A DNA stretch of 64,000 bases from Chryseobacterium defluvii. GTDB taxonomy: Bacteria > Bacteroidota > Bacteroidia > Flavobacteriales > Weeksellaceae. Where the stretch lies: NCBI RefSeq assembly GCF_003634775.1, contig NZ_RBXB01000001.1:248001-312000 (forward strand), given 5' to 3'. This document shows, one piece after another, positions 1 to 47,603 of this stretch. The translations under genes and the position numbers were made by a program. Position 1 is the first letter of the stretch, and every line of letters starts with the position of its first letter. The notes beneath the pieces are model-generated. The model did not search any database, was not told the DNA's origin, and saw only the letters and a program-made list of their open reading frames with translations.

Positions 1-1532
1 AGGTTTCTAAAGTAGAGCTTTCTCAATATAAAGCTTATGATCAGAAAAGTGATAAAGCAGATCTGCCTCTTTATCTGATTAATAAAAATAATTCGAACTA
101 CGGATTTCAGTTTAAAGATAAAACAGGGAAAGTGATCAATACCAAAGATTTGGTATTCTCTCCGACAGTTAACGGAAACTCAGTGACCATGACCGCTAAT
201 TACGGCGGTGCTGTTATCCAGTTTATCTATACATTACTTCCGAAATACACCCTAGATTTTAAAGTAAGAACCCAGGGACTTGCCAAGGTTACTTCTGATA
301 CAAAAGCAGATTTCATCTGGAACTATAATGTAAGAAACTTAGAAAAGGGTAGATCCCAGGAGCAGTCACACTCGGAATTTTCTTATGCATTCAATAATTA
401 TAAGGATTATGATTACGATGCAAGAACAACTATGGATGAGCCGGAGGAAACTTTAAACTGGATAGGAGTAAAACAGCAGTTTTTCTCATCAATCATTGAA
501 GCTAAGACCGGATTTACACAAAGTAAAGGAAGTCAGGAAAATGTGGAAGAAGGAGAATATCTGAAGAAATTCAATTACGAAGGTTTTGTTCAGATGACCG
601 GGAATGAATTGAACCAGGATTTTTCATGGTATTTCATGCCGTTGGATCTGCCTTTATTGAAATCTTATGATAAAAACTTTGATGAAATTTTACCATTAGG
701 CTGGTCGTTTATCGGATCCATGAACCGTTGGTTCTTTATGCCGATGTATAACTTTATTTCTTCTTGGGGAGTTACTGCAGGCTGGGCTATTTTCATATTG
801 ACAATCATTGTAAAGCTTATCCTGTCGCCAATTATGTACAAACAGCATAAATTGAGTGCGATGATGAGAGTGATCCGTCCTGAAATTGATGAGGTGAATG
901 CCAAATTGAAAGATGCAGACCCGATGAAGAAGCAACAGGCGACTATGGAAGTGTACAGAAAAGCAGGTGTCAATCAAATGGCAGGTTGTTTGCCGGCATT
1001 GGTGCAAATCCCGATTTTCTATGCCTTATTCCGTTTCTTCCCGAACTTTATAGATTTAAGAGGGGAGGGCTTCTGGTTTGCAAAAGACTTAACTGCTTAT
1101 GATGATCTCATTAAGTTACCATTTAACATTCCTTTCTTAGGCGATCATTTAAGTGTGTTCGCGTTGGCATGTACGGTGGTAATCCTTATTTATACCATTA
1201 TGACTTCAGGAAATATTCAGCAGCCACAACAGGAAGGAATGCCGAACATGAAAGTATTAATGTATATCTTCCCGATTACATTCCTGTTCTTCCTGAATAC
1301 ATCTGCATCCGGTTTATCTTGGTATTATTTTGTATCAAATGCCATCAATATTTTAATTATCCTTGTTATTAAATACTGGATTTTGGATGAGAAAAAGATT
1401 CACGCACAAATTCAGGCTAATAAAGAAAAGCCAAAAGCGGAAGGAAAGTTCCAAAAGAGAATGAGAGAAATGATGGAGAAAGCTCAGGAGCAACAGAAAA
1501 TGACAGAGCAGCAAAGAAATAAAAAGAAATAA
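1..1532 (+). CDS. yidC: Membrane protein insertase YidC (5' end missing)
   Basis: The reading frame is already open at the left edge, so this is the C-terminal part of the gene; the GTG near 132 is internal. The visible part starts in the large periplasmic domain of Gram-negative YidC and continues into the conserved 60-kDa inner-membrane insertase domain, starting about 'SSWGVTAGWAIFILTIIVK' and including the segments 'AGCLPALVQIPIFYALFRFF' and 'MYIFPITFLFFLNTSASGL'. It ends in a lysine-rich cytoplasmic tail, as expected for ribosome contact. The protein inserts and folds inner-membrane proteins, alone or with SecYEG. A strong hairpin terminator follows directly. The family call is secure; only the N-terminus is unseen. 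Confidence 0.95.
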   Translation, partial: VSKVELSQYKAYDQKSDKADLPLYLINKNNSNYGFQFKDKTGKVINTKDLVFSPTVNGNSVTMTANYGGAVIQFIYTLLPKYTLDFKVRTQGLAKVTSDTKADFIWNYNVRNLEKGRSQEQSHSEFSYAFNNYKDYDYDARTTMDEPEETLNWIGVKQQFFSSIIEAKTGFTQSKGSQENVEEGEYLKKFNYEGFVQMTGNELNQDFSWYFMPLDLPLLKSYDKNFDEILPLGWSFIGSMNRWFFMPMYNFISSWGVTAGWAIFILTIIVKLILSPIMYKQHKLSAMMRVIRPEIDEVNAKLKDADPMKKQQATMEVYRKAGVNQMAGCLPALVQIPIFYALFRFFPNFIDLRGEGFWFAKDLTAYDDLIKLPFNIPFLGDHLSVFALACTVVILIYTIMTSGNIQQPQQEGMPNMKVLMYIFPITFLFFLNTSASGLSWYYFVSNAINILIILVIKYWILDEKKIHAQIQANKEKPKAEGKFQKRMREMMEKAQEQQKMTEQQRNKKK

Positions 1533-1545
1533 CATATCATAACAG

Positions 1546-1580
1546 AAAGAGAAGCAAATTATTGCTTCTCTTTTTTATTT
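1546..1580 (+). terminator. Rho-independent terminator after yidC
   Basis: A 12-bp inverted repeat (1546-1557 with 1562-1573, loop ATTA) is followed by a T run, 14 nt past the yidC stop. It lies between convergent yidC and rnhB and may serve both. Confidence 0.85.
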
Positions 1581-1639
1581 AGAGGGATTTTAAATTTCAT
1601 TTCTGAAGGCTGTAAAATCATAATTCAAATTTGAAAAAT

Positions 1640-2224
1640 TTAATCGTATTCAAGCCTGAAGGATCTTCTGTGATATTTGGTAGGACCATGCTTCGAAAGC
1701 GCTTCCTGATGCAGTTTGGTTGCATACCCAAAGTTTGTATTCCAGCCATACTGCGGGAATTCATCATGCAACCTAATCATCAATCTATCTCTGTAGTTCT
1801 TTGCTAAAATAGATGCTGCAGCGATAGATAATACTTTAGCATCGCCTTTTATAATACATTGATGGGGAATATAATTATAGGGATGGAATCTATTTCCGTC
1901 TACTAAAATAAGTTCCGGCCTTATAGTTAATTGATCTAATGCTTTATGCATCGCATGTATGCTGGCGTTCAATATATTGTGCTGGTCTATGAACTCTGCA
2001 GGAAGTTCAGCAATGGCATAGCTTTTAACATTATCTTTAATGTAGTCATCCAATTGCATACGGGTCTGAAAATTTAACTTTTTGGAATCATTAACTAAAC
2101 TTTGCTTAAAATTATCACCTAAAATGACAGCTGCAGCCACCACAGGACCACTTAAACAGCCTCTTCCTACCTCATCGCACCCTGCTTCGATGTAATTATC
2201 CGTCCATTTCTTTAACAAATCCAT
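1640..2224 (-). CDS. rnhB: Ribonuclease HII
   Basis: RNase HII cleaves the RNA strand of RNA-DNA hybrids and starts removal of single ribonucleotides from DNA. The N-terminal motif 'AGCDEVGRGCLSGPVVAAAV' holds the first catalytic Asp and Glu, 'LILVDGN' gives the next Asp, and 'SIAAASILAKNYRD' is the family signature. About 194 aa is normal for bacterial RnhB. I chose the ATG at 2224; a TTG four codons upstream (2236) is also in frame but less likely. A perfect TAnnTTTG -7 box on the minus strand (2255-2248) lies just upstream. The gene is convergent with yidC. Confidence 0.93.
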   Translation of the reverse strand: MDLLKKWTDNYIEAGCDEVGRGCLSGPVVAAAVILGDNFKQSLVNDSKKLNFQTRMQLDDYIKDNVKSYAIAELPAEFIDQHNILNASIHAMHKALDQLTIRPELILVDGNRFHPYNYIPHQCIIKGDAKVLSIAAASILAKNYRDRLMIRLHDEFPQYGWNTNFGYATKLHQEALSKHGPTKYHRRSFRLEYD

Positions 2225-38936: not shown

Positions 38937-39022
38937 TTAAAGAAAAATGCCCCGAAGATAGTCGAGGCGCTAAATGTTTTCACAACGGAATAATCCTTAT
39001 TGTGAATTGCTTTCAAAAATTT
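38937..39022 (-). ncRNA. tracrRNA of the type II-C CRISPR system
   Basis: Positions 39000-39021 are identical over 22 nt to the complement of the CRISPR repeat, i.e. the anti-repeat. Reading leftward on the minus strand it continues into a nexus-like AAGGATTATTCC enclosed by TTCACAA/TTGTGAA, then a hairpin GCCTCGA...TTCGGGGC (one mismatch) and a T run at about 38946-38941. This order matches known tracrRNAs. A perfect promoter lies just upstream (39029-39059). It pairs with the crRNA repeat, enabling RNase III processing and Cas9 loading. Confidence 0.88.
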
Positions 39023-39028
39023 ATAATT

Positions 39029-39059
39029 CAAATATAACGAAATCCATTTTACATATCAA
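39029..39059 (-). promoter_or_regulatory. tracrRNA promoter
   Basis: On the minus strand: TTG (39059-39057), 20 bp, TATATTTG (39036-39029). The -7 box is perfect and start of transcription about 7 nt later falls at the first base of the anti-repeat region. Confidence 0.7.
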
Positions 39060-39127: not shown

Positions 39128-42100
39128 ATGATTAAAAATATACTTGGATTAGACTTAGGTACAAATTCAATCGGTTGGGCACTAGTTCGGCAGGATTTTG
39201 AAAATAAATTAGGTGAAATTCTTGGAATGGGAAGCAGGATTATTCCTATGTCTCAGGATATTTTGGGAGAATTTGGAAAAGGTAATTCTGTTTCTCAAAC
39301 CGCAGAACGTACAGGCTACAGAAGTGTAAGAAGGTTGCGTGAAAGATTTTTATTACGTAGAGAAAGACTTCACAGGGTTTTGAATGTCTTAGGCTTTTTG
39401 CCAGAACATTACGCTTTACAGATTGATTTTGAAAATAGATTTGGTAAGTTTAGAGCCGAAACAGAGCCTAAATTGGTTTATGATGATGAGGGATTTATTT
39501 TTAAAAATTCCTTTGAAGAAATGCTCTCAGATTTCAAAAAACATCAACCTAGGCTTTTAGAAAATAACAGGAAAATTCCTTATGATTGGACAATTTATTA
39601 TCTCCGAAAAAAGGCACTTACTCAAAAAATTGAGAAAGAAGAACTAGTCTGGATTCTTTTGAACTTTAATCAGAAGCGTGGTTATTACCAGTTGAGAGGT
39701 GAAGAGGAAGAAGAGAACCCTAATAAATTAGTGGAATTTTATTCTTTAAAAATTATAGATGTTTTAGCCGATGAACCTCAAAGAGGAAAACCGGATATTT
39801 GGTATTCACTGATTTTAGAAAACGGATGGATTTACAGACGATCGAGTAAAATTCCTTTATTTGATTGGAAAGATAAGATAAAAGATTTTATTGTAACTAT
39901 TGATTTAAGTGATGATGGAAGCATTAAAAAGGATAGAGAAGGAAATGAGAAAAGGAGTTTTCGAGCACCAAGTGAAAATGATTGGACACTTGTAAAAAAG
40001 AAAACAGAGCAGGAAATCGACCAATCGCATAAAACTGTTGGAACATATATTTATGAAACTTTGCTTCAAAATCCCAAGCAAAAAATTAAAGGAAAACTAG
40101 TTCGTACAATTGAAAGAAAATTCTATAGAACTGAACTCAAACAAATTCTGGAAAAACAGAAAGAGTTTCATCCGGAATTACAAAATGATGATTTATATAA
40201 TGATTGCGTGAGAGAATTATACCGCAATAATGAAACTCATCAACTGACATTGAGCAAAAAAGATTTTGTTCACTTATTTTTGAATGATATTATTTTTTAC
40301 CAAAGACCTTTAAAAAGTCAGAAATCTTCTATTTCCAACTGTACTCTTGAATTCAGAAAATATAAAGATGAAAATAAAGTAGATCAGACACAATATTTGA
40401 AAACTATTCCAAAATCAAATCCATATTATCAGGAATTTCGTATTTGGCAGTGGGTGTTTAATTTGAATATTTACAAAAAAGATGATGATACGAATGTAAC
40501 TAAAGAATTTTTAAGAAATATTCAAGACTATGAAACTCTGTTTGGCTTCTTAAATAACAGGAAAGAGGTGGATCAAAAAGCATTGTTAAAACACTTTAAA
40601 TTAAATGAAAAAACACATCGTTGGAATTATGTAGAAGACAAAAAGTACCCCTGTAATGAAACCAAAACAATGATTTTGACGAGGTTGGAAAAAGTTGAAA
40701 ATTGTTTGGTTAATTTCCTGACAAGAGAAATGGAACAAAGTATATGGCACATTATCTATTCCGTCAATGATAAAACAGAATATGAAAAAGCATTAAAATC
40801 ATTTGCCAGAAGAAATAATTTAGATGAAAGTTCATTTTTTGAAGCCTTTAGAAAATTCCCGCCATTCAAAAGTGAATATGGTTCTTTTTCAGAAAAAGCG
40901 ATTAAGAAATTGCTGCCAATAATGCGTTTGGGAAAATATTGGAATTGGGAAAATATTGATGAAAAATCTCAAGAAAGAATTGGAAAAATTATCACAGGAG
41001 AATTTGATGAGAATATCAAAGATAAAGTCAGGGAAAAAGTATTACATCTTACGAATGAAAAACATTTTCAGGGTTTGCCATTATGGTTGACTCAATATAT
41101 AGTTTACGGACGTCATTCGGAAGCTTCAGTTTTAGGAAAATGGAATTCTGCAGATGATTTAGAAGAGTTCCTAAAAGAATTTAAACAACATTCGCTTCGT
41201 AATCCAATTGTAGAGCAAGTGATTACCGAAACCTTACGCGTTGTAAAAGATATTTGGTTGAAATATGGGAACGGAGCAAAAGATTTCTTTAATGAAATTC
41301 ATATTGAGTTAGGAAGAGAAATGAAGCTTCCCGCTGAGGAAAGAGAAAAACTAACTCGACAAATTTCTGAAAATGAAAATACCAGTCTTCGAATTAAAGC
41401 TTTATTAGCTGAAATGATGAATGATAATGAAGTCGAAAATGTTCGTCCTTTTTCTCCGATGCAACAGGAAATTCTTAAAATTTATGAAGAGGGGGTTTTA
41501 AATTCTGATATTGAAATTGAAGATGAATATTTAAAAATCAGTAAAACAGCACAGCCTTCTTCATCCGATTTAAAGCGTTATAAGCTTTGGCTCGAGCAGA
41601 AATACCGCTCACCCTATACAGGAGAAATTATTCCGTTAAACAAATTATTTACTCCTGAATACGAGATTGAGCATATTATCCCTCAAAGCCGTTATTTTGA
41701 TGATAGTTTCAGTAATAAAATTATATGTGAATCAGCAGTTAATAAATTGAAAGATAATCACATTGGTCTTGGTTTTATTAAACAGTTTCACGGAACAACT
41801 GTAGAATGCGGTTTGGGAAGGAATGTAAGAATTTTTGAAGTAGAAGCCTATGAAGATTTTGTAAAGAAACACTACGCTAAAAACCGTAGTAAGAGAACAA
41901 AACTTCTTTTAGAGGAAATTCCTGAAAAAATGATTGAACGCCAGTTGAATGATACAAGATACATCAGCAAATATATTTCAGGAGTACTTTCTAATATTGT
42001 TAGAATAGAAGACGGAACAGATGAAGGAGTAAATTCTAAAAATATTGTTCCGGGAAATGGAAAAATCACAACACAATTGAAACAAGATTGGGGATTGAGT

Positions 42101-43417
42101 GATGTCTGGAATGAATTAATACTTCCACGTTTTGAAAGAATGAACCAATTGACCAATTCAAGTGATTTTACAGTATGGAGTAAAAATCATCAGAAATTCT
42201 TACCTACAGTTCCAGTTGAATTTTCAAAAGGATTCTCTAAAAAAAGGATAGATCACCGACATCATGCAATGGATGCTTTGGTAATTGCATGTGCAACAAA
42301 AGATCATATTAACCTTCTAAATAATCAATCAGCAAAATCAGATACCAAAAGATACGATTTAAAGAGAAAGCTGATGAAATTTGAAAAGGTAGTTTATAAT
42401 CATCCTCAAACCGACGAAAAAGTTGAAAAAGATGTTCCTAAACAATTTTTGAAACCTTGGAATAACTTTTCTGTTGATGCGAAAAACAAATTGGAAACAA
42501 TTATTGTAAGCTTTAAGCAAAATTTGCGTGTTATTAATAAAGCTACTAATAATTATGAAAAATGGATTGAAAAAAATGGCGTTAAAACAAAAGAACTGGT
42601 AAAGCAAAAAGGGATAAATTGGGCGATACGAAAACCAATGCATAAAGAAACTGTTTCAGGAAAAGTTGATTTATCATGGGTTAAAGTTCCGAAAGGCAAA
42701 ATATTAACGGCGACAAGAAAAAGTGTAGATTCTTCATTTGACCTGAAAACAATTGCTTCAATTACCGATACAGGGATTCAGAAGATTCTGAAAAATTATT
42801 TGGAGTTTAAAGGCAGTCCTGAATTAGCATTTTCTCCGGAAGGAATTGAGGATATGAACAGAAATATCGAAAAATTTAATGAAGGTAAACCACATCAACC
42901 TATTAATAAAGTCAGAATTTTTGAGCTTGGAAGTAAATTTCCCGTAGGACAAACAGGGAATAAAAAAAATAAATATGTAGAGGCTGCCAAAGGAACAAAT
43001 CTGTTTTTTGCTGTATATGAAAATAAAAACGGGAAAAGAAGTTATGAAACAATTCCATTAAATGAAGTAATTGAAAGACAAAAACAAGGTTTGGATTCTG
43101 TTCTATTTAAAAGTAAAGAAGACTTCTTACTATGCCCAAATGATTTAGTTTATATTCCTTCAGGCGATGAGGTTGAAAATGTGTATAATATAGATTTTGA
43201 GAATTTTACGAAGCAAAAAATGGCAAATATTTATAAAGTGGTTAGCTTTTCTGGAAGTCAGATATTTTTTATTCAGCAGAATGTTTCTGTATCAATTGTA
43301 AATAAAACCGAATTTTCCACTTTAAATAAAATGGAAAGGTCGATTGATGGATTAATGATTAAAGATAATTGTGTTAAGTTGAAAATAGATCGTTTAGGTA
43401 ATATTTTAAAAACATAA
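39128..43417 (+). CDS. cas9: CRISPR-associated endonuclease Cas9, type II-C
   Basis: A 1429-aa RNA-guided DNA endonuclease, within the size of long Bacteroidetes II-C Cas9. RuvC-I 'ILGLDLGTNSIGWALV' (Asp9), an arginine-rich bridge helix near 64-90 ('RSVRRLRERFLLRRERLHR'), RuvC-II 'IHIELGREMK' (Glu727), HNH 'YEIEHIIPQSRYFDDSFSNK' (His849), RuvC-III 'DHRHHAMDALVIACA' (His1046, Asp1049). All expected catalytic residues are present, so it should be active. The C-terminal region includes the PAM-interacting domain; its PAM cannot be read. cas1 and cas2 follow (7-nt gap, then 4-nt overlap) and no csn2/cas4 is present, which defines II-C. Confidence 0.97.
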   Translation: MIKNILGLDLGTNSIGWALVRQDFENKLGEILGMGSRIIPMSQDILGEFGKGNSVSQTAERTGYRSVRRLRERFLLRRERLHRVLNVLGFLPEHYALQIDFENRFGKFRAETEPKLVYDDEGFIFKNSFEEMLSDFKKHQPRLLENNRKIPYDWTIYYLRKKALTQKIEKEELVWILLNFNQKRGYYQLRGEEEEENPNKLVEFYSLKIIDVLADEPQRGKPDIWYSLILENGWIYRRSSKIPLFDWKDKIKDFIVTIDLSDDGSIKKDREGNEKRSFRAPSENDWTLVKKKTEQEIDQSHKTVGTYIYETLLQNPKQKIKGKLVRTIERKFYRTELKQILEKQKEFHPELQNDDLYNDCVRELYRNNETHQLTLSKKDFVHLFLNDIIFYQRPLKSQKSSISNCTLEFRKYKDENKVDQTQYLKTIPKSNPYYQEFRIWQWVFNLNIYKKDDDTNVTKEFLRNIQDYETLFGFLNNRKEVDQKALLKHFKLNEKTHRWNYVEDKKYPCNETKTMILTRLEKVENCLVNFLTREMEQSIWHIIYSVNDKTEYEKALKSFARRNNLDESSFFEAFRKFPPFKSEYGSFSEKAIKKLLPIMRLGKYWNWENIDEKSQERIGKIITGEFDENIKDKVREKVLHLTNEKHFQGLPLWLTQYIVYGRHSEASVLGKWNSADDLEEFLKEFKQHSLRNPIVEQVITETLRVVKDIWLKYGNGAKDFFNEIHIELGREMKLPAEEREKLTRQISENENTSLRIKALLAEMMNDNEVENVRPFSPMQQEILKIYEEGVLNSDIEIEDEYLKISKTAQPSSSDLKRYKLWLEQKYRSPYTGEIIPLNKLFTPEYEIEHIIPQSRYFDDSFSNKIICESAVNKLKDNHIGLGFIKQFHGTTVECGLGRNVRIFEVEAYEDFVKKHYAKNRSKRTKLLLEEIPEKMIERQLNDTRYISKYISGVLSNIVRIEDGTDEGVNSKNIVPGNGKITTQLKQDWGLSDVWNELILPRFERMNQLTNSSDFTVWSKNHQKFLPTVPVEFSKGFSKKRIDHRHHAMDALVIACATKDHINLLNNQSAKSDTKRYDLKRKLMKFEKVVYNHPQTDEKVEKDVPKQFLKPWNNFSVDAKNKLETIIVSFKQNLRVINKATNNYEKWIEKNGVKTKELVKQKGINWAIRKPMHKETVSGKVDLSWVKVPKGKILTATRKSVDSSFDLKTIASITDTGIQKILKNYLEFKGSPELAFSPEGIEDMNRNIEKFNEGKPHQPINKVRIFELGSKFPVGQTGNKKNKYVEAAKGTNLFFAVYENKNGKRSYETIPLNEVIERQKQGLDSVLFKSKEDFLLCPNDLVYIPSGDEVENVYNIDFENFTKQKMANIYKVVSFSGSQIFFIQQNVSVSIVNKTEFSTLNKMERSIDGLMIKDNCVKLKIDRLGNILKT

Positions 43418-43424
43418 TATTAAG

Positions 43425-44653
<1,229 letters not shown>

Positions 44654-44671
44654 ATTTTAAATTCTAAAAAT

Positions 44672-44707
44672 AAAAACAATCTGCTGAAAATCAATAGATT
44701 GTTTTTT
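44672..44707. terminator. Two-way terminator between cas2 and the CRISPR array
   Basis: An 11-bp stem AAAAACAATCT/AGATTGTTTTT (44672-44682 and 44696-44706). A T run follows on both strands, so it can end cas transcription from the left and array transcription from the right. Confidence 0.75.
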
Positions 44708-44710
44708 GAG

Positions 44711-46067
44711 GTTGTGACTAATCACGAAGATAATAATTTTTGAAAGCAATTCACAACTAATTTTACAGGATGAACATCTATAGGGTTGTTGTGACTAATC
44801 ACGAAGATAATAATTTTTGAAAGCAATTCACAACAGTAACACATCCGGTAGCGGTGTCCCACTCGTTGTGACTAATCACGAAGATAATAATTTTTGAAAG
44901 CAATTCACAACTATAGTCTCAAGGACCTGTTTTGATGAAATGTTGTGACTAATCACGAAGATAATAATTTTTGAAAGCAATTCACAACAAATGCTGAAGC
45001 GGGGATCTTTTCTAAATCGTTGTGACTAATCACGAAGATAATAATTTTTGAAAGCAATTCACAACGTCTTCCTGATGCGTCTACTGGGATTAGTGGTTGT
45101 GACTAATCACGAAGATAATAATTTTTGAAAGCAATTCACAACGGTATGATTATGATGATAAAGGTTCTGTTAGTTGTGACTAATCACGAAGATAATAATT
45201 TTTGAAAGCAATTCACAACTTAGAGGTATGCCAACTTTAGCCCCTATATGTTGTGACTAATCACGAAGATAATAATTTTTGAAAGCAATTCACAACTAAA
45301 ATTATTACAAGTCGTAAAGTTACTCAGTTGTGACTAATCACGAAGATAATAATTTTTGAAAGCAATTCACAACTAAGGATCAGATCGCCTTTTTCATTCT
45401 TAAGTTGTGACTAATCACGAAGATAATAATTTTTGAAAGCAATTCACAACTGCTGATACCTCCATCACTGTTTCCAGCCCGTTGTGACTAATCACTAAGA
45501 TAATAATTTTTGAAAGCAATTCACAACGGAAGTTGAGTTCACGAAAACTGGTATCAAGTTGTGACTAATCACGAAGATAATAATTTTTGAAAGCAATTCA
45601 CAACAGCTTCGGTAATTAACCGCGCGGTGTTATTGTTGTGACTAATCACGAAGATAATAATTTTTGAAAGCAATTCACAACGCTTTTGTTCGGCATCTGT
45701 ATAGATATATTGTTGTGACTAATCACGAAGATAATAATTTTTGAAAGCAATTCACAACCGCTTACTCGGATTGGAACTCAACTTTTGAGTTGTGACTAAT
45801 CACGAAGATAATAATTTTTGAAAGCAATTCACAACACGAACCAATGATGATTGATCAGACTTACTGTTGTGACTAATCACGAAGATAATAATTTTTGAAA
45901 GCAATTCACAACAGCAATGCAGCCGCATCTTTATAGTCTTGTGTTGTGACTAATCACGAAGATAATAATTTTTGAAAGCAATTCACAACTGGCAAGCATG
46001 TTGGAAATTGCATCCGGATGTTGTGACTAATCACGAAGATAATAATTTTTTGAAAACAACTCACACT
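44711..46067 (-). CRISPR. Type II-C CRISPR array, 18 repeats and 17 spacers
   Basis: Repeats of 47 bp start every 77 bp from 44711 to 46020, so all 17 spacers are 30 bp. Repeats run from GTTGTGACTAATCACGAAG to TGAAAGCAATTCACAAC on the plus strand. The repeat at 45481 has one base change (CACTAAGA). The last, 46020-46067, is degenerate at its right end (insertion, GAAAACAACTCACACT). Because the tracrRNA anti-repeat lies on the minus strand, functional crRNAs must be transcribed from the minus strand. I noticed no spacer match within this window by eye. Confidence 0.97.
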
Positions 46068-46120
46068 TATTAGCATTTCATAAATAAGTGAGGTCAATTA
46101 TGAAAATAAGAATAAACTTA

Positions 46121-46138
46121 TTGACTAATGGTTGACTA
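46121..46138 (+). repeat. Right pair of candidate integrase arm sites
   Basis: TTGACTA at 46121 and 46132, 11 bp apart, the same orientation and spacing as the pair at 22614/22625 near the left end of the element. Confidence 0.5.
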
Positions 46139-46141
46139 AAA

Positions 46142-46172
46142 AAATAAAAACCACTTGATTATCAAGTGGTTT
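46142..46172 (-). terminator. Terminator next to the shared attachment site
   Basis: AACCACTTGA/TCAAGTGGTT (about 46150-46171) is a near-perfect palindrome preceded by an A-rich run (T run on the minus strand). As at 22422-22450, it lies on the tRNA-3' side of the core at 46182. Confidence 0.65.
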
Positions 46173-46181
46173 AATTTCAGA

Positions 46182-46198
46182 TTGTAGACCCACAGGGA
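46182..46198 (-). other. Shared attachment core between the first element and the prophage
   Basis: An exact second copy of the 17-bp core at 22451-22467. It ends the first element and begins the second, whose integrase gene lies 131 bp further right. The third copy, with the complete tRNA, would be expected beyond the window on the right. Confidence 0.62.
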
Positions 46199-46304
46199 TC
46201 AATGTTTATAAATTATATTAAATCATTATTAATTGAAATGCTTTATTAAAAGCTAAAACGATTTATTATCAATCTTTAATAATCTTATTCAAGCTATAAA
46301 AAGT

Positions 46305-46326
46305 GTGTATAAAACTGTGTATAAAA
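46305..46326 (+). repeat. Paired GTGTATAAAA repeats beside the prophage integrase
   Basis: Two copies of GTGTATAAAA start at 46305 and 46317, 12 bp apart, between the core and the 3' end of the prophage integrase. By position they may be that enzyme's arm sites. Confidence 0.4.
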
Positions 46327-46328
46327 TC

Positions 46329-47603
46329 TTATTTTTTATTGAACTTATTCATTTCGGATTTTTTTAAATCATCTACAATTGCAATGTAAGGTTTCATTGA
46401 TTGATAATCCTTATGTCCAGTCCATTTCATTATTACTTCAGCTGGAATACCCAAATATAGACTATTTACTATGAAGGTTTTACGGCCAATATGAGAACTC
46501 ATCATTTCATAAAATGGATAGACTTCATCAAATCTTTTTTCTCCAATAAAATATACGTAATTAACTGGTTCATCAAATTCTAAAATACTTCCTATTATTT
46601 TTATCTGTTCATTAATTTCCTTTTCACTTTTTACTGGAAGAGATTTTACGCCTTGAAGGCTACTATATTTTGATAAGATTTCTTTAGTATAATCGTTCAA
46701 ATCGATTTTAATTGCATCCGTTGTTTTCTGTGTTGTAACATAAAAGAAATCATCCCGGATCTGAGTTTTTTTTAAAGCAAATACATCTGAATATCTTAAT
46801 GAACTAAAACAACAAAATGCAATAATATCCCTTGTTTCTTCCAAGTGTTTTTCTGATGGTTTAAATTTGTGATTATAAAATTTCATTAACCTTTCCCAAT
46901 TCATAAAAATTGGCTCGTTCAGATCAAAATTTGCACCCTTAAACTTTGGATAGAAAGTTTCATGTAAATCTCCATCATAAAAGCCTTTTTTCTTTGCCCA
47001 TTTTAGGACGGTTCTAACATCCTTAATAGTTCTGGACACGGTTGTATTTTTGTGTGGAGCACCAGGTTTACCCGTTTTAATGTTAATAGGTTCGGTTTGG
47101 AAATATTTCACAAATTTCACTAAATCTTTTTCCGTAACATTCTTTATGATTAGGTTGCTATTATAAAAATTCAAGTGATTTTCCAGTTTTTTAAATCTGT
47201 CATAATTTGATTTTGTCCAGGAATCCCTTTCTCCTGTTTCGTTTGCATACTCTAAAGCTGATTGAGCAAAAGTAGGATTAATAATTTTTTTTTTAGATTC
47301 AGATCTGCCATTTTTCTCACTAAATTTCAATTGGAGTTCTTCGGAGGAGGGGAATCTATTTTCTAAAATTTCAAACTCATCAAAAATTTTTTTTATGGTT
47401 TCTTCAATTTTATCCAGATCTTTATTCCTTGAATCTTTACGATTAACAATTCTTTGGTGTTCTTTATCCCATTCGGATGCTTTAACAGTAATTCCAGTGT
47501 ATAACTCGGGACGATTTGAATTGAAGGAAACGAATGCCCTAACAGGACTGTCAAGGTCTTTTTTTGATTTATTTATATAGAAATTTACTTTATGTTTGAG
47601 CAT
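46329..47603 (-). CDS. Tyrosine recombinase / integrase of the prophage
   Basis: A 424-aa recombinase distinct from the first one. The N-terminal arm domain ('LKHKVNFYINKSKKDLDSPV') is followed by a core-binding domain and a catalytic domain with Arg in 'CCFSSLRYSDVFALK', His-x-x-Arg in 'SSHIGRKTFIVNSLYL', His in 'KWTGHKDYQS' and Tyr in 'MKPYIAIVDD'. It reads toward the att core, the usual layout for temperate phages. ATG at 47603. Confidence 0.92.
   Translation of the reverse strand: MLKHKVNFYINKSKKDLDSPVRAFVSFNSNRPELYTGITVKASEWDKEHQRIVNRKDSRNKDLDKIEETIKKIFDEFEILENRFPSSEELQLKFSEKNGRSESKKKIINPTFAQSALEYANETGERDSWTKSNYDRFKKLENHLNFYNSNLIIKNVTEKDLVKFVKYFQTEPINIKTGKPGAPHKNTTVSRTIKDVRTVLKWAKKKGFYDGDLHETFYPKFKGANFDLNEPIFMNWERLMKFYNHKFKPSEKHLEETRDIIAFCCFSSLRYSDVFALKKTQIRDDFFYVTTQKTTDAIKIDLNDYTKEILSKYSSLQGVKSLPVKSEKEINEQIKIIGSILEFDEPVNYVYFIGEKRFDEVYPFYEMMSSHIGRKTFIVNSLYLGIPAEVIMKWTGHKDYQSMKPYIAIVDDLKKSEMNKFNKK

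Follow-up and report, generated by a model that had tools for sequence, protein, structure and literature searches.

The type II-C CRISPR locus of the window, by which we mean the whole 64,000-nt stretch of Chryseobacterium defluvii DNA analysed here, raises the question of where its guide RNAs begin: whether each repeat carries a promoter of its own, and why the repeat farthest from cas2 has decayed in one half and kept the other. Based on sequence comparison, the answer we favour, with a probability of roughly 0.8, is that each repeat would be a two-part element. Its -7 box would start the guide of the next spacer, a terminator would stand on the cas2 side of the array, and the -7 half of the terminal repeat would have been kept.

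The locus and its array

The locus is of type II-C. Its plus strand carries cas9, cas1 and cas2, its minus strand a predicted tracrRNA, and it includes an array (Table 1). No further cas gene adjoins these three among the open reading frames listed and one further neighbour that was scanned. The predicted tracrRNA sits before cas9, and its antirepeat (39000-39021), which fits the first half of the crRNA repeat, pairs with repeat positions 2-23 (E 2e-8 in a sub-window scan); a GC-rich hairpin and a T-run form its predicted 3' end. The single Rfam match at the tracrRNA, CRISPR-DR50, was below threshold. Of the 141 loci where an antirepeat-like match was found, 92 have an exact box of the Bacteroidota type before the antirepeat, compared with 8.7 in shuffles, and TTG at N17-23 precedes 30 of the 90 exact tracrRNA boxes with enough preceding sequence. 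Separately, the end hairpin of the tracrRNA in the window (38949-38970) contains TATCTTCG on the minus strand, the identical eight letters of the repeat box described below; considering that this hairpin varies among relatives, the identity is probably a coincidence.

Table 1. Coordinates of the locus in the window and of related arrays in Riemerella phage records
Feature	Position	Strand	Basis
cas9	39128..43417	+	TIGR01865, 412.7 bits, cut-off 100
cas1 (type II family)	43425..44318	+	TIGR03639, 284.9 bits, cut-off 120
cas2	44315..44653	+	TIGR01573, 58.7 bits, cut-off 24.5
Predicted tracrRNA	38943..39024	-	sequence and antirepeat search; both ends inferred
Predicted tracrRNA promoter, TTG-N20-TATATTTG, exact Bacteroidota-type box	39029..39059	-	sequence
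Hairpin with T-run on both strands, cas2-array interval (leader)	44669..44707	.	minus -12.2 kcal/mol; plus from letters
Type II-C CRISPR array, 17 repeats and a decayed 18th	44711..46067	- (crRNA sense)	antirepeat; consistent with cas2-side terminator
-7 box TATCTTCG, cas2-proximal repeat	44725..44732	-	sequence; conserved in other repeats
Decayed terminal repeat, read as promoter-only	46020..46067	-	alignment to consensus
Intact -7 box TATCTTCG of terminal repeat	46034..46041	-	sequence
Predicted start site, terminal repeat	~46028-46029	-	inferred; 9-10 nt before spacer 45990-46019
Hairpin with T-run	46143..46173	-	-13.2 kcal/mol
Riemerella phage arrays, one to three spacers	RAP44 (L383) 1460-1640; CRP19 (L384) 2450-2780; CRP34 (L385) 1450-1640		

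The array holds 17 good copies of a 47-bp repeat, GTTGTGACTAATCACGAAGATAATAATTTTTGAAAGCAATTCACAAC, with 30-bp spacers and 77 bp from start to start. Sixteen of the copies are perfect and the one at 45481 has a single change; a search at up to 3 mismatches found no second array of this repeat in the genome. Since the crRNA strand is the minus strand, transcription of the array runs towards cas2 and the decayed repeat comes first. One spacer (45528-45557) fits Chryseobacterium phage MA9V-3 (PV245944) at 29/30, with ATGAATTCG as the 3' flank. For a check of the orientation by PAM, two targets, this one and the tape-measure gene matched by the Riemerella phage spacer described below, do not suffice to define a PAM.

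Read on the minus strand, every good repeat carries TTG at positions 2-4, then 21 bp and the box TATCTTCG at positions 26-33, as the original prediction had stated, and its letters are indeed one mismatch from TAnnTTTG. The box ends 14 nt before the repeat end and recurs every 77 bp up to 45957-45964, in 17 copies of which one, at 45495-45502, reads TATCTTAG. Taken by itself, the window gives the motif no advantage over chance. TTG N19-20 with the one-mismatch boxes TAATTTTT and AATTTTTG, which are as good, can be read from the plus strand of the repeats, and the rest of the window shows 1.2-1.7 matches per kb and strand to TTG, N17-23 and a one-mismatch box. Considering that 17 copies of one sequence are one observation, the motif cannot stand on the window alone.

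The -7 box in divergent repeats

We compared the array with those of related genomes. A Cas9 protein search of 296 genomes of the family gave a match in 142, and a TIGR01865 search of two overlapping samples of 395 genomes gave 82 (order) and 65 (phylum) above the cut-off. From part of the matching genomes 160 regions were taken, together with 80 loci chosen by Cas1 alignment (the best 80 of 536 confirmed), the nearest of which are mostly Chryseobacterium; Flavobacteriaceae, Bacteroidales, Cytophagales and Saprospiraceae are among the comparison loci. Arrays with repeats of 44-50 nt, the long class, numbered 176, and 164 were distinct after removal of 12 duplicates; these have 132 distinct repeat sequences, which fall into 61 clusters at 80% of the 3' part. 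Of 241 loci, the window included, 68 have no long-class array, and 36 further arrays, of the 36-nt class or with a short or odd consensus, were excluded from the counts. Loci of the same order with 36-nt repeats (L099-L101, L115, L120, L126-L128, L130, L131 and L134) have repeats of the GTTGTGGTTTGATTAAAG type without TAnnTTTG, and therefore the reading of the repeat as a promoter applies to the long class. In these loci, cas1 and cas2 lie opposite to cas9. Other 36-nt repeats (L168, L172) carry TATCTTAG or TACCTTAG.

The box and its place are conserved across the long class, and with a strand bias. On the crRNA strand, exact TAnnTTTG was found in 24 of the 61 cluster representatives, compared with a mean of 1.3 and a maximum of 6 in shuffled 3' parts, and a box with at most one mismatch in 59, compared with 17.4 and a maximum of 29. 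On the opposite strand the exact box was found in 0 of 61 and a box with at most one mismatch in 9. Shuffle controls preserve base composition only for the box, tracrRNA-box, hairpin and stem counts, and dinucleotides for the TTG-replacement and outside-promoter counts. Among the 59 boxes, 48 start at repeat positions 22-28 (ties taken as leftmost) and 49 end 12-17 nt before the repeat end. When starts are limited to positions 21-29, the 61 representatives comprise 23 exact boxes, 31 with one mismatch, six with two and one with three. The common departures from TAnnTTTG are the endings TTAG, TTCG and TTTA, and TATCTTCG of the window is among such. In the 54 representatives with a box start at 21-29, T1, A2, T5 and T6 carry 1.87-2.00 bits, values that are partly high by construction since the boxes were picked by match. 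The columns after the box carry 0.05-0.24 bits at positions 9-19 and 0.39-0.46 bits at 20-22, and the bases there are nearly random between clusters, for example GTATCTTTGATGTG, GTATCTTTGACATA and GTATCTTTGGTGCC.

Judged by their letters, the repeats contain the Bacteroidota housekeeping -7 box, from which the repeat of the window is one mismatch off, and a promoter-like box stands in every repeat on the crRNA strand. The original prediction that repeats may carry their own promoters is thus strengthened by a box at a near-fixed place that is exact on the crRNA strand only, and it draws this strength from the comparison, not from the window alone. For Flavobacterium psychrophilum, the available part of the source (PMC9723704) places the -7 box at -12 to -5 from the start. 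Most of our boxes leave 12-17 nt of repeat behind them, and the start should therefore fall within the repeat; we predict it at position 38 or 39, and the primary guide would open with about 9-10 nt of repeat.

A conserved stretch at this place could also reflect a hairpin or palindrome (TATC-N5-GATA) that is needed in the RNA or by Cas1-Cas2, with no promoter. Such a structure agrees with the pairing of TATC with GATA that can form in many repeats of the window's own group, and with the good preservation of the bases 9-13 nt before the spacer in 99 decayed terminal repeats (2 to 5 changes per base). However, stems of at least 4 bp around the box occur in 9 of 61 representatives, near the 6.4 obtained with a shuffled tail, and 19 of the 23 exact boxes have a stem of at most 3 bp. 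Among 89 terminal repeats, the stem bases n3 and n4 changed 6 and 6 times, more than T5 and T6, which such a structure would place in the loop (1 and 2). The hairpin is accordingly not favoured, and we regard it as the least probable of the explanations considered here.

A single long precursor is the rule in most CRISPR types, and the array could likewise be read from a single promoter, either beyond its distal end or in the leader beside cas2. A Riemerella study placed the promoters in the leader and, in the available part of its text, reported none in the repeats (PMC5006608). On the other side, the 200 nt beyond the distal end contain exact boxes no more often than chance predicts (17 of 127 compared with 16.8 expected; with TTG, 3 compared with 2.6), so that a distal promoter outside the array was rejected, and leader boxes that point towards the array fall below the chance count (3 of 160 compared with 13.3 expected). 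No exact minus-strand box occurs in the window from 44600 to 46451, where the hairpin with a T-run beyond the terminal repeat separates the neighbouring gene from the array; this hairpin could stop minus-strand transcription from the right-hand gene before the array. In the 140 nt on the cas2 side, a hairpin and T-run at or below -8 kcal/mol was found in the crRNA direction in 124 of 160 arrays (24 when shuffled), and a hairpin and T-run in the cas direction in 113 of 160 (11 when shuffled). The distal end, searched in the direction that a transcript from the leader side would take, gave 23 of 131 (14 when shuffled). Considering this excess on the cas2 side, the leader of the long class looks mostly like a terminator between converging transcripts, and the leader hairpin of the window is, from its letters and folding energy, a probable terminator for the array on the minus strand and for the cas operon on the plus strand. 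Accordingly, a long precursor from outside the repeats seems improbable to us, only a shade less so than the hairpin.

Asymmetric decay of the terminal repeat

Compared with the consensus, the terminal repeat of the window has position 2 deleted, changes at positions 8 and 12 and one base inserted after position 16, and positions 17-47 are unchanged. The damage is therefore confined, as had been claimed, to the half that would pair with the tracrRNA, and the half with the -7 box is intact. Since the TTG itself is damaged, the -7 half alone is retained.

The original prediction had asked for a comparison of terminal repeats in related arrays, and this showed the same asymmetry. After removal of 29 arrays near a locus edge and 4 with a related flank, 131 independent terminal repeats were available, of which 99 are degenerate and 26 wholly intact; the 32 that are intact or have one change were excluded from the decay counts. 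More changes were found in the outer 16 nt than in the inner 16 nt in 90 of the 99, fewer in 5 and equal numbers in 4, and the tracr half is thus the worse one in 90. The end repeat on the cas2 side has at most one change in 157 of 160 arrays. Over the 99 terminals, the change rate is 0.350 in the tracr half, 0.146 in the linker, 0.040 in the box core, 0.088 (35/396) in the other box bases and 0.053 after the box. The intact part begins at or before the box start in 86, inside the box in 8 and after it in 5; evenly spread break points would place 31% inside or after the box, compared with the 13 of 99 observed. In four of these 13 exceptions (L048, L050, L107 and L182) the box is no worse than the array's own, and over all 99 it is no worse in 85, of which 5 are better, and worse in 14. 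The A+T content of the decayed outer part is 0.68, compared with 0.67 in the surroundings, and shows no enrichment.

The TTG of the repeat did not behave as the selected -33 element that had been proposed, and we rejected it in this role: it is kept in 13 of the 99 decayed terminals, and the triplets overlapping or adjoining it up to position 7 are kept in 11 to 25, like the TTG. It is also not replaced above chance, a new TTG at N17-23 being found in 16 of 91 decayed terminals compared with 18.9 expected. Although the repeats contain TTG, its role as the -33 element of Bacteroidota housekeeping promoters is not supported. The repeat TTG belongs both to the tracr handle and to the end of the repeat, without necessarily serving a promoter. 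In the part of PMC7366714 available, a -33 TTG could not be identified in F. johnsoniae.

The asymmetric decay could arise by neutral renewal, in which the decayed terminal repeat recombines with an inner one, spacers are lost and the resulting hybrid has old outer and fresh inner sequence, so that the box is kept by its position and not its function. The drop of the change rate from outside inwards is as this explanation would have it, and half-intact terminal repeats would then require no promoter. For this reason the core T1 A2 T5 T6 was compared with the alternating bases n3 n4 T7 G8, which avoids the effects of an outward gradient and of renewal. Neutral renewal predicts that these alternating bases change equally, but the core changed in 16 of 396 cases and the interleaved bases in 35 of 396 (p=0.0086, uncorrected and one of several tests; p=0.057 for AT bases only). 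Of the 89 terminals with a TAnnTT core, 17 have changed in the last 7 nt, and in these the core is still spared, with 1/68 changes compared with 16/68 in the other box bases (p=0.0001) and 20/121 in the rest of the post-box segment (p=0.001). Conditioned the other way, 29 terminals gave 5/116 for the core, 20/116 for the other box bases (p=0.002) and 23/203 after the box (p=0.04). The core is spared in terminals whose inner end has already changed, and therefore it is protected in repeats that were not recently renewed. In the second, third and fourth repeats from the distal end, the core is also the least changed (3/384, 1/384 and 3/388).

On the other hand, over all 99 terminals the post-box segment and the core are about equally well preserved (AT bases, 34/874 or 0.039 compared with 16/391 or 0.041, p=0.88), as neutral renewal would have it, and among the 66 terminals with a changed inner part the two do not differ significantly (p=0.36). 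This indicates that something besides the -7 box also acts, perhaps the start region or renewal. Neutral renewal furthermore leaves the fixed box in divergent repeats unexplained. We therefore consider it unlikely as the whole explanation, though the most serious of the three rivals. Accordingly, the proposed selection on a promoter-only first repeat is partly supported, in that the core is better kept, and recombination without selection is weakened and still a rival. As a neutral control for the decay of last repeats, type V-A arrays, in which the last repeat should serve no purpose, were sought in viral contigs with a repeat motif; 103 stretches were found, judged by match counts alone, and among the 80 listed, 78 had a single match and 2 had two.

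Returning to the two-part repeat, we propose the following mechanism. The first half of the repeat (GTTGTGAATTGCTTTC... on the minus strand) would form the end of the previous guide and pair with the tracrRNA, and the second half would hold the -7 box of the TAnnTTTG type, here TATCTTCG, at which RNA polymerase would fire the next spacer towards cas2. Transcription would begin about 10 nt before the repeat end, and the guide transcript would run from inside one repeat through the spacer into the next repeat; read-through over further units may continue up to the terminator beside cas2. The tracr half of the cas2-distal repeat would be free to decay because no spacer lies upstream of it, and the -7 half would be retained by selection because the guide of the oldest spacer starts there.

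Phage-borne arrays and comparison with known systems

A search of phage records with the array of the window matched 33 records. Riemerella phages carry a tiny array in which the leader terminator is joined by a full repeat, a single 30-nt spacer and a half repeat; the half repeat keeps TATCTTTG and the spacer-side end, and the tracr half is lost. Eleven of the 19 matching records contain this 191-nt piece at full length and 99.5-100%, one of them being labelled a Shigella phage, and phage CRP19 carries two further units. At 27/30, the spacer matches a tape-measure gene found in one record of phage GDF21, and the three mismatches all lie within the first 12 nt. Another GDF21 record carries the cassette itself, so the target may be the phage's own gene or that of a relative. 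On the minus strand of the last 190 nt of a viral contig (L390), a half repeat, spacer, full repeat and terminator follow one another; the repeat differs, and the half repeat contains exact TATATTTG. The half repeats of these cassettes, read as promoter-only, speak for the two-part repeat. The cassettes represent one or two lineages, not many independent events.

Other viral sequences hold less. Single repeat-like units of the same repeat family were found in eight viral contigs (L386, L387, L389, L391, L405, L409, L410 and L417), with no second repeat within 200 nt of available sequence, L391 lying near the locus end, and they are candidates for RNA anti-CRISPRs. In L410, exact TATCTTTG lies 2 nt before the repeat. 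Several other single 17-mer matches from that scan resemble chance. In the Riemerella phages PJR4, CRP6 and GRAP2 (L396, L397 and L398, ~1200-1290), the leader terminator is kept and the repeat is decayed after ~12-16 nt, as though the phage uses the terminator alone.

Taken together, we put at a little better than even a wider reading in which the last repeat is a maintained promoter and no relic, selection having spared the -7 half only, and the array a chain of one-guide genes, whose smallest working unit phages have copied. Each such gene would comprise a half repeat as promoter, a spacer and a half repeat as tracr handle. The copied unit would be a half-repeat promoter, one spacer, one repeat and a terminator, its spacer matching a phage tape-measure gene in the Riemerella phages. 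If this reading is true, every spacer would be expressed singly, and old distal spacers would not be silenced by their distance from a leader promoter. The terminal repeat would be a readable record of promoter requirements, and a small ready-made guide cassette for Bacteroidota would be at hand. The lack of a reported promoter in Riemerella repeats may also be explained in this way.

Among known systems, repeat promoters were reportedly described for Neisseria by Zhang in 2013, as given by citing papers. In Campylobacter jejuni, a promoter in each repeat was mapped through transcript starts by differential RNA-seq, as the available part of the paper describes (PMC3656092). Our arrays resemble the II-C arrays of Neisseria meningitidis and C. 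jejuni, in the accounts available, in having one promoter per repeat, here predicted, that points into the next spacer. In the Neisseria and Campylobacter arrays, however, the -10 box belongs to the 3' part of each repeat and transcript starts are marked in the spacers (PMC3656092 for C. jejuni, available part), whereas our repeats, 44-50 nt long, have a Bacteroidota -7 box that mostly ends 12-17 nt short of the spacer, and their predicted start falls within the repeat, not in the spacer behind a box at the repeat end. Accordingly, the Neisseria-type scheme of the original prediction holds for one box per repeat and not for its plan, and the repeats here may work like that kind without being built like it.

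For the II-C arrays of Flavobacterium columnare and F. psychrophilum, a repeat-encoded promoter has been proposed and transcription towards the leader reported, both as predicted here; in F. columnare the direction rests on eight reads (PMC8092290 and PMC10309648, available parts). In these parts, that proposal names only a TTG, 33-35 bp before the spacer, and no -7 box in the repeat, and PMC10309648 assigns the TAnnTTTG box to cas9 only. In our comparison, by contrast, the -7 box is conserved and the TTG is not. RNA anti-CRISPRs (Racr) are solitary repeat units in phages, according to the available part of PMC10651486. The Riemerella phage pieces are like them in being repeat-like pieces in phage genomes with a small RNA, which for the phage pieces is predicted. 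They differ in that a half repeat and a full repeat flank a spacer, and they therefore look like one-guide genes, not solitary repeats. The open-licence papers covered, in their available parts, mention neither a -7 box within the repeat nor a terminal repeat reduced to its promoter. Judging from the literature available to us, repeat promoters as such are known, having been mapped in Campylobacter, cited for Neisseria and proposed in Flavobacterium from TTG alone; what our comparison would add is a Bacteroidota -7 box within the repeat, with a start predicted about 10 nt before the spacer.
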